Shown: one piece after another, positions 45,942 to 49,164 of the stretch
Numbering within the stretch: position 1 is the first letter of the stretch
Layout of the letters: each line of letters starts with the position of its first letter
Assembly: GCA_003216375.1 (NCBI GenBank)
Contig: QCIZ01000003.1
Location: forward strand, 62,001 to 126,000
Reading direction: 5' to 3'
From: Prochlorococcus sp. AG-402-O21
Lineage (GTDB): Bacteria > Cyanobacteriota > Cyanobacteriia > PCC-6307 > Cyanobiaceae
DNA: 64,000 nucleotides
The notes under the pieces: generated by a model
What the model was told of the DNA's origin: nothing
The model's input: the letters and a program-made list of their open reading frames with translations, nothing else
Database searches by the model: none
Made by a program: the position numbers and the translations under genes

Positions 45942-46142
45942 ATGACATCTTCCTCTCAGGTAATTACTGAATACGGCAAGCAAAATATATTTGCTCGTGA
46001 AACTCCTCCACAATTAGTGGAAAACTATACAAGCTATCCAAAGGAAGCTGAGAAAACCAATGGACGTTGGGCAATGATTGGAATGATCAGCCTTTTAGGT
46101 GCATACGTCACAACAGGACAAATCATCCCAGGTATCTTTTGA
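45942..46142 (+). CDS. hli: High-light-inducible protein (Hli/SCP)
   Basis: A 66-residue single-span chlorophyll-binding protein. The motif EKTNGRWAMIG keeps the Glu, Asn and Arg of the ExxNxR chlorophyll-binding site, and the C-terminus ends TTGQIIPGIF, the usual Hli tail. Hli proteins bind chlorophyll and carotenoid and protect photosystem II during stress or assembly. It overlaps the next hli by four bases. Confidence 0.93.
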   Translation: MTSSSQVITEYGKQNIFARETPPQLVENYTSYPKEAEKTNGRWAMIGMISLLGAYVTTGQIIPGIF

Positions 46143-46303
46143 ATTCAGAATCATCCTCCAAATCTGGAAACTACATCAATGTAGTTAATGAGTTCAGCCC
46201 AGAGACCGCTGAGATATCTAATGGTCGCTGGGCAATGATTGGTATAACTTCTCTTATTGGCGCATATGCAACAACAGGACAAATTATCCCTGGCTTTTTT
46301 TAA
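46139..46303 (+). CDS. hli: High-light-inducible protein, overlapping the preceding hli
   Basis: A 54-residue Hli protein with full EISNGRWAMIG motif and TTGQIIPGFF tail. The most likely start is TTG at 46139, which overlaps the TGA of the upstream hli (TTGA). No ATG is available in this frame before the helix, except one inside the upstream hli at 46067. The arrangement implies translational coupling, or a -1 frameshift producing a two-helix Hli. Confidence 0.85.
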   Translation: MNSESSSKSGNYINVVNEFSPETAEISNGRWAMIGITSLIGAYATTGQIIPGFF

Positions 46304-48575: not shown

Positions 48576-48616
48576 AACTCCGTTACATTCCTTTACATAA
48601 GTTCATCTATTTTCAA

Positions 48617-48724
48617 ATGACACCTGAAGCAGAAAAGTTTAACGGCTGGGCAGCAATGCTTGGTTTCGTTGCAGCCTTTGGCGCATATGCAACAACAGGA
48701 CAAATAATCCCTGGCATCTTCTAA
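48617..48724 (+). CDS. hli: High-light-inducible protein, triplet gene 1
   Basis: A 35-residue single-helix Hli (MTPEAEKFNGWAAMLGF start, TTGQIIPGIF end). The ExxNxR motif reads EKFNGW: Glu and Asn are present, but the Arg is Trp. It is the shortest Hli here and the first of three closely spaced hli genes. Confidence 0.88.
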   Translation: MTPEAEKFNGWAAMLGFVAAFGAYATTGQIIPGIF

Positions 48725-48735
48725 ACTTTTTAATT

Positions 48736-48855
48736 ATGCAACCTTCTAACAAAACAATTCTTGAAAGAAGTATCGGGAGGCCAGCAATGATGGCTTTCGT
48801 ACTTTTAACAGGTATCTACCTAACAACTGGCCAACTAATTCCAGGTGTTGTGTAA
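48736..48855 (+). CDS. hli: High-light-inducible protein, triplet gene 2
   Basis: A 39-residue Hli with the motif ERSIGRPAMMAF: Glu and Arg are kept, but the Asn is replaced by Ile. Tail TTGQLIPGVV. It starts 11 bp after gene 1 and its TAA overlaps the ATG of gene 3 (TAATG). Confidence 0.85.
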   Translation: MQPSNKTILERSIGRPAMMAFVLLTGIYLTTGQLIPGVV

Positions 48856-49001
48856 TGTCTACTCAAAAGAACAATACAAGAAACATTGATCCTGAAAAGG
48901 TAACCGCAGAAAGGCTTAACGGCTATGCAGCATTATTTGGTTGTATTGCTTTAGTTGGAGCATATGCAACCACAGGCCAAATCATACCTGGTTTTGTATA
49001 A
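48855..49001 (+). CDS. hli: High-light-inducible protein, triplet gene 3
   Basis: A 48-residue Hli (MSTQKNNTRNIDPEKVTAE start) with the motif ERLNGYAALFG: Glu and Asn are kept, but the Arg is Tyr. Tail TTGQIIPGFV. It overlaps gene 2 by one base. A strong terminator follows. Confidence 0.9.
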   Translation: MSTQKNNTRNIDPEKVTAERLNGYAALFGCIALVGAYATTGQIIPGFV

Positions 49002-49062: not shown

Positions 49063-49140
49063 ACTAGGTTTAATTTGTTAGAAGAATCTTTGAATTTATA
49101 TCATCTATCAAAACGTTCGAATTTTTTAAACACAACGTAG

Positions 49141-49164
49141 AAGCTCTCTTCTTGAGAGCTTTTT
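49141..49164 (+). terminator. Second terminator-like hairpin after the hli triplet
   Basis: An 8-bp stem AAGCTCTC / GAGAGCTT with a TTCTT loop, followed by TTT then AGTTTT. It could be a back-up terminator for the hli operon or, on the minus strand, serve the small gene at 49204, whose stop is 40 bp away. Confidence 0.6.

Follow-up and report, generated by a model that had tools for sequence, protein, structure and literature searches.

A three-gene hli operon of Prochlorococcus whose second and third genes may encode unlike halves of a chlorophyll-binding heterodimer

How could three adjacent hli genes serve chlorophyll binding if none of them encodes the complete ExxNxR motif? In the LHC fold, every helix binds chlorophyll through its Glu and Asn, and the Arg of the partner neutralises each Glu. 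Hlips, viewed as cyanobacterial forerunners of the antenna proteins of plants, are considered to act as dimers that bind four chlorophylls. The LHC ligands are Glu180 and Asn183, and in the relative LIL3 mutation of the Asn ligand abolishes pigment binding (PMC8617258). The question is raised by a trio of genes in a 64 kb stretch of Prochlorococcus DNA, which is called the window here. The complete motif is missing from each protein of the trio; genes 1 and 3 are without the Arg and gene 2 is without the Asn. An earlier note on this DNA had proposed that all three proteins form obligate heterodimers, with gene 2 as the Arg source for genes 1 and 3. The analysis described below leads us to favour, by a modest degree, another reading, that of a high-light-responsive operon of three ancient, strongly constrained Hli subfamilies in which the products of genes 2 and 3 would form an asymmetric heterodimer.

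The trio, its putative promoter element and its genomic setting

The three genes are located on the forward strand. Gene 1 (48617..48724) encodes a 35-aa Hli with EKFNGW, where Trp takes the place of Arg; gene 2 (48736..48855) encodes a 39-aa Hli with ERSIGRP, where Asn is replaced by Ile and the Arg is kept; and gene 3 (48855..49001) encodes a 48-aa Hli with ERLNGY, where Arg is replaced by Tyr and both Glu and Asn are kept. They belong to the subfamilies termed G1, G2 and G3, respectively. The three motifs and their positions were re-read as the earlier note had given them, and the other hli pair of the window was found to carry the full motif as it had said, with EKTNGR in the first gene (45942..46142, forward strand, subfamily F5) and EISNGR in the second (46139..46303, forward strand). 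These two genes were used as a reference outside the trio. The further statement that each protein of the trio departs from the motif at a different place was not borne out, as genes 1 and 3 change the same site (Arg to Trp and to Tyr) and gene 2 alone differs (Asn). The N-terminus of the full-motif pair (45942-46303) reads TEYGKQN. Some genomes of the genus have this pair close to the trio, but no match was seen there in the loci L135, L136, L138 and L141.

All three proteins matched phrog_178, 'high light inducible protein' (E=4e-20, 3.8e-9 and 3.4e-15 for genes 1, 2 and 3), and all three end in a TGQxIPG segment (TGQIIPG, TGQLIPG and TGQIIPG), which has been described as conserved in the Hli of phage and host (PMC5083919). 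The Pfam Chlorophyll a/b-binding profile PF00504 gave no match to genes 1-3 even at E=10, and matched the full-motif pair (45942, 46139) only below threshold. Scans with NCBIfam and Pfam returned no useful family for genes 1-3, and a search for a solved structure related to gene 2 found none. By sequence criteria the trio proteins, each short of one motif residue, are filed as Hli homologues and not as canonical ExxNxR Hlips, and gene 1 with its subfamily G1 is related to the phage hli03 group.

An HLR1-type element, GTTACATTCCTTTACATA (48582..48599, forward strand), is present 17 bp upstream of gene 1. It is an exact match to KTTACAWWNNKTTACAWW and the sole zero-mismatch match within the window. 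HLR1 is the binding site of RpaB at hli genes of Synechocystis (PMC6331805). In the survey described below, a relaxed HLR1 was located upstream of 30 of the 64 cellular runs led by gene 1; of the 779 genes inside hli runs, 4 had it. The element ahead of gene 1 is taken as a putative HLR1 or RpaB-type high-light promoter element. Downstream of gene 3, a consensus scan alone picked out a terminator-like hairpin (49139..49163, forward strand) with a 10-bp stem followed by a T-rich tail.

The genome from which the window comes is 1.76 Mb in size and has 24 hli matches, many with the full motif. It includes three near-identical clusters of the order EKTNGR-ERSIGR-ERLNGL-EQMNGR and also a lone gene 1, the protein of which is 100% identical to that of the window. 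Four contigs of this genome (C17, C26, C27 and C28 of G000) end within hli clusters; the assembly was interrupted by repeated copies of such clusters, and the hli copy number may therefore be under- or over-counted. Eight further genomes of the genus have the trio between the same neighbours. At these eight loci gene 1 is always 100% identical, while identity of the flanking proteins mostly ranges from 70 to 97%. The trio of the window is a syntenic core locus across the LLI-like Prochlorococcus genus.

Over 18 orthologous loci, 17 different DNA sequences of gene 1 encode one and the same protein (dS=0.37, dN=0). The dN/dS values at these loci were 0 for gene 1, 0.038 for gene 2 and 0.080 for gene 3, and dozens of 100% identical copies of gene 2 occur across the genus. 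Chance, decay of the genes and sequencing error were considered as sources of the altered motifs and were ruled out by the dN/dS of 0 to 0.08 and by the identity of proteins encoded by many DNA sequences. The altered residues are maintained and not decaying, since the genes are under purifying selection.

Motif residues across hli subfamilies and the independence of gene 1

To place the trio among its relatives, searches were carried out in the genus (41 genomes), in the family (201 and 400 genomes), in named genomes and in IMG/VR viral contigs. They gave 567 loci with 1143 distinct hli genes, both cellular and cyanophage. These were sorted into five subfamilies by N-terminal and C-terminal features, and the residue-type rules used in the sorting are our own. 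In two control subfamilies the motif is kept almost without exception: Glu, Asn and Arg are present in 154/154 members of F4 (GWIIPG type) and in 165/166 members of F5 (ExxNGRWAM). In G1, to which gene 1 belongs, 269 of 270 members show Trp at the Arg site. In G2, the subfamily of gene 2, the Arg is present in 222/222, and Glu, Asn and Arg together in 0/222. G3, the gene 3 type, retains Glu and Asn in 230/230 with a variable Arg. As some of the search patterns contained 'GR', the Arg count for G2 was repeated with a rule that ignored the motif residues, on loci fetched by gene-1 or gene-3 queries alone; 63/63 copies had the Arg.

The Glu of G2 is replaced in many lineages, by D, N, L, F, V, Q, T or I, and its Asn by I, L, F, V or Q; the Asn is retained only if the Glu is lost. 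Read as Glu/Asn/Arg, the cellular states are EIR, NIR, DIR, DFR, ELR and DLR, and the viral states LNR, LQR, EIR, VQR, FQR, FNR, QNR, EVR, QIR, TQR and IQR. In G3, the Arg is replaced by Y, L, K, Q, A and, once, W, with I in a related viral group. Column variability followed the same division. Of the 28 columns in G2, that of the Glu varies most and that of the Arg does not vary at all. In G3 behind G2 the Arg column has rank 26 of 28, and there Glu and Asn are the invariant residues. The controls F4 and F5 show no variation at Asn and Arg and almost none at Glu. The alignment across hli families, which the earlier note had suggested, thus shows a reciprocal loss of sites between genes 2 and 3; it also shows the Trp of gene 1 to be universal in its subfamily, which speaks against a dependence of gene 1 on gene 2.

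The occurrence of gene 1 bears on the same point. The Trp form occurs as a lone gene, making up 11 cellular and 22 viral runs by itself. In other genera and in phages it adjoins EKLNGR where gene 2 is absent, and the record of the phage P-SSP7 shows no hli match besides it. These copies exclude, as a general rule, that gene 1 needs gene 2. The earlier note had said that its proposal would fall if the same changes were present in isolated, single-gene hli proteins that bind chlorophyll as homodimers; for the Trp of gene 1, half of this is found, namely the occurrence in isolated genes. The full form of that proposal, with obligate heterodimers throughout and gene 2 serving both neighbours, could draw on gene 1 being directly upstream of gene 2 in many operons and on two-gene viral cassettes which join an Arg-less ENW or ENQ gene to a Glu-less, Arg-bearing gene 2. 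In view of the lone copies, the copies next to EKLNGR and the P-SSP7 record, we consider it improbable. The role of gene 2 as an Arg source is supported with respect to gene 3, by the reciprocal invariance, adjacency and overlap described in the next section, and is not supported for gene 1. As judged from its distribution, gene 1 is a separate subfamily, Arg-less everywhere, with no dependence on gene 2. Its product probably pairs with any available Arg-bearing Hli, be it gene 2, the gene 3-type EKLNGR or host Hlis; alternatively, it may work without a Glu-Arg pair. The partner of the P-SSP7 protein, if Arg-bearing, would be a host Hli.

Linkage and reciprocal loss in genes 2 and 3

In the window, the stop codon of gene 2 and the start codon of gene 3 share one base within TAATG (48853..48857, forward strand). 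The one-base overlap was found in 168 of 179 gene 2/gene 3 pairs, and in 63/63 of the viral ones, suggesting translational coupling of the two genes. In cellular runs gene 3 comes after gene 2 in all but one case (L241, which has no gene 3).

Cyanophages show the three genes in the same layout, so that a peculiarity of the host alone was ruled out. In P-SSM7, a phage of the host NATL1A, the order is EKFNGW, LRANGR (gene-2 type) and EKWNGI (gene-3 type), and the genes overlap. Complementary two-gene cassettes are also seen in viruses, namely ERINGW+FRANGR, ERTNGQ+QRANGR and ERINGW+VRAQGR. At the loci L308, L319, L321, L271, L293 and L306 the first gene is Arg-less (ERTNGQ or ERINGW) and the second is Glu-less with Arg (QRANGR or FRANGR). 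The podophage NATL1A-7 (L569) has an unannotated 37-aa Hli of the gene-2 type, QRANGR, at 2501-2614; it lies directly behind a full-motif ELQNGRWAM Hli, labelled 'predicted protein', near psbA, and this Glu-less gene 2 behind a full-motif Hli counts against the proposed pairing.

The state of the Arg in gene 3 was compared with the presence of gene 2. Contig-end copies of gene 3 at L007, L108 and L111, in cut runs seemingly without gene 2, were set aside. Among unique viral gene-3-like cores, 38/42 of those immediately behind a gene 2 had lost the Arg, and 0/25 of those with gene 2 absent or downstream (Fisher 1.4e-14, uncorrected for kinship). Where a viral Glu-less gene 2 is followed by gene 3, the Arg of gene 3 was lost in 51/51 pairs. 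Similar operons were then collapsed to 122 representatives before a permutation test; loss of the gene 2 Glu and loss of the gene 3 Arg still agreed above the level given by permutation (39 of 58, p=0.0013). In cells, the Arg was lost in 20/45 copies with gene 2 upstream versus 1/8 otherwise (p=0.13). The link in cells is weak, in part on account of the sister genera and the HL-type genus, whose gene 3, adjacent to gene 2, retains Arg (or Lys). In sister genera gene 2 lies ahead of a full-motif gene 3, EKINGR or EKLNGR, and gene 2 is therefore older than the loss of the Arg in gene 3.

In HL-type Prochlorococcus (L200, L201, L205, L234 and others, including MIT 9401 and MIT 9201), gene 2 reads NRAIGR, with Asn for Glu, and the gene after it is ENLNGK or ENLNGR; Arg and Lys vary here among close relatives, sometimes in otherwise identical pairs. 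An Arg-less gene-3-like ERINGW with no gene 2 nearby was seen at L126 (G095 contig C41), the only complete-run exception among the Arg-less gene-3-type genes.

Trees were built from gene 3 (222 rows) and from genes 2 and 3 together (150 rows). They require at least 8 changes for the Arg of gene 3 and at least 3 for the Glu of gene 2. The linkage counts given above do not represent independent events. Tree-based independent contrasts left one to two usable pairs on well-supported branches and, short of power, were not significant; the trees are not resolved because the proteins are too short.

These patterns have to be weighed against ordinary divergence of a large multicopy family, with a looser motif in short marine Hlis. 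Chlorophyll would then be held without the Arg pair, some 24 Hlis would mix freely, and genes 2 and 3 would be old, co-inherited neighbours. Such an account is in keeping with the 24 hli matches of the genome, many of them with the full motif, with a gene 1 that is Arg-less in every context, lone genes included, with phylogeny-corrected tests below significance, and with the Arg kept in gene 3 beside gene 2 in the sister genera. However, the loss is not spread over the motif, as each subfamily drops one side and keeps the other absolutely. Six residues have taken the place of the Arg in gene 3, and in complete operons this has almost always happened behind a gene 2 (L126 being the exception); the control subfamilies of the same operons lose almost nothing. 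Glu-0 and Arg-5, moreover, are reported to be ubiquitously conserved in the superfamily (Engelken et al., PMC3020630). On balance, ordinary divergence appears rather unlikely to us.

The product of gene 2 could instead be a pigment-free, Hli-like adaptor or antagonist, whose helix and Arg would dock on, or block, a surface of a photosystem or of chlorophyll synthase and would not serve to complete the chlorophyll site of gene 3. At least one chlorophyll ligand is indeed lost in all 222 copies of gene 2, and a precedent is offered by Psb34, which has an HliA/B-like N-terminus, seemingly occupies the same site on PSII and regulates HliA/B binding (PMC9458560). An adaptor role, however, would not lead one to expect that the following gene drops precisely the Arg which would lie opposite the lost Glu of gene 2, or that the two genes overlap by one base nearly everywhere, and the chances of this explanation are judged to be small.

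A proposed half-loaded dimer and its comparison with known systems

The adjacency of genes 2 and 3, their one-base overlap and the reciprocal loss of sites fit a gene2:gene3 heterodimer, which they suggest at the level of sequence. The two proteins would be the unlike halves of a one-helix heterodimer, made 1:1 through translational coupling. In the intact half, the Glu and Asn of gene 3 would be combined with the Arg of gene 2, and chlorophyll would be held mainly on gene 3. In the impaired half, the Asn of gene 2 is gone and its Glu would be opposite the Tyr of gene 3, with no Arg. The dimer is thus expected to carry about two chlorophylls, not four, and to have a pigment-poor face, probably turned toward a photosystem II assembly intermediate or chlorophyll synthase. 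A homodimer of gene 3 would have no Glu-Arg pair and one of gene 2 no Asn ligands; because either homodimer would miss one of these, the half-loaded heterodimer is the simplest reading. Heterodimers of Hlips are on record as HliC/HliD, HliA/C and HliB/C (PMC12142464).

A more specific proposal is that gene 2 is a dedicated Arg-donor Hli of Prochlorococcus and its phages, one that has given up its own ligands and completes the chlorophyll site of a co-translated, Arg-less partner. We advance it tentatively, with slightly less than even confidence. The many other Arg-bearing Hlis of the cell count against gene 2 as the sole donor. If the Arg-donor reading is true, a split, half-loaded LHC chlorophyll site would be common to host and virus. 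The pairing of pigment-bearing and pigment-poor halves, if true, would provide a natural test of the Glu-Arg pair and of each ligand, would help to explain why LLI Prochlorococcus retains many small hli genes, and would give a concrete biochemical hypothesis for the cyanophage hli clusters.

The Hli family, the heterodimers of Hlips and, from the passages concerned in Sullivan et al. 2010 (PMC3037559), the phage groups hli03 and T4-GC 270/271 are already known. No account of a reciprocal loss of Glu/Asn and Arg was found in the open-licence literature on Hli motifs, phage hli genes and heterodimers. Like the trio proteins, Hlips are one-helix proteins with an HLR1/RpaB-type promoter and short, HliC-like N-termini, and they form homo- or heterodimers, as may those of the trio; they are described as having the chlorophyll-binding motif in common, with four chlorophylls bound by any dimer of them (PMC12142464). 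In the trio, unlike in these Hlips, the loss of ligand and of Arg is divided between two coupled genes.

In plants, OHP1 and OHP2 are encoded by unlinked nuclear genes. They are two unlike one-helix LHC-like proteins that reportedly form a chlorophyll-binding heterodimer (Hey and Grimm 2020, as cited in PMC8617258). Among Prochlorococcus, the LLI clade carries more hli genes (PMC6102989), in multicopy clusters; the trio of the window is one of several such clusters in an LLI-like genome, and differs from many of the others in being without the EQMNGR gene that ends them. A further counterpart is in cyanophages, namely hli03 and T4-GC 270 and 271 (hli04 and hli05 of P-SSM7); P-SSM7 has the same trio as the window. 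The passages of Sullivan et al. 2010 (PMC3037559) on these groups, which list them, contain no discussion of the motif. In gene 2 of P-SSM7 the Glu is lost and the Asn kept, whereas in gene 2 of the window it is the Asn that is lost and the Glu that is kept.
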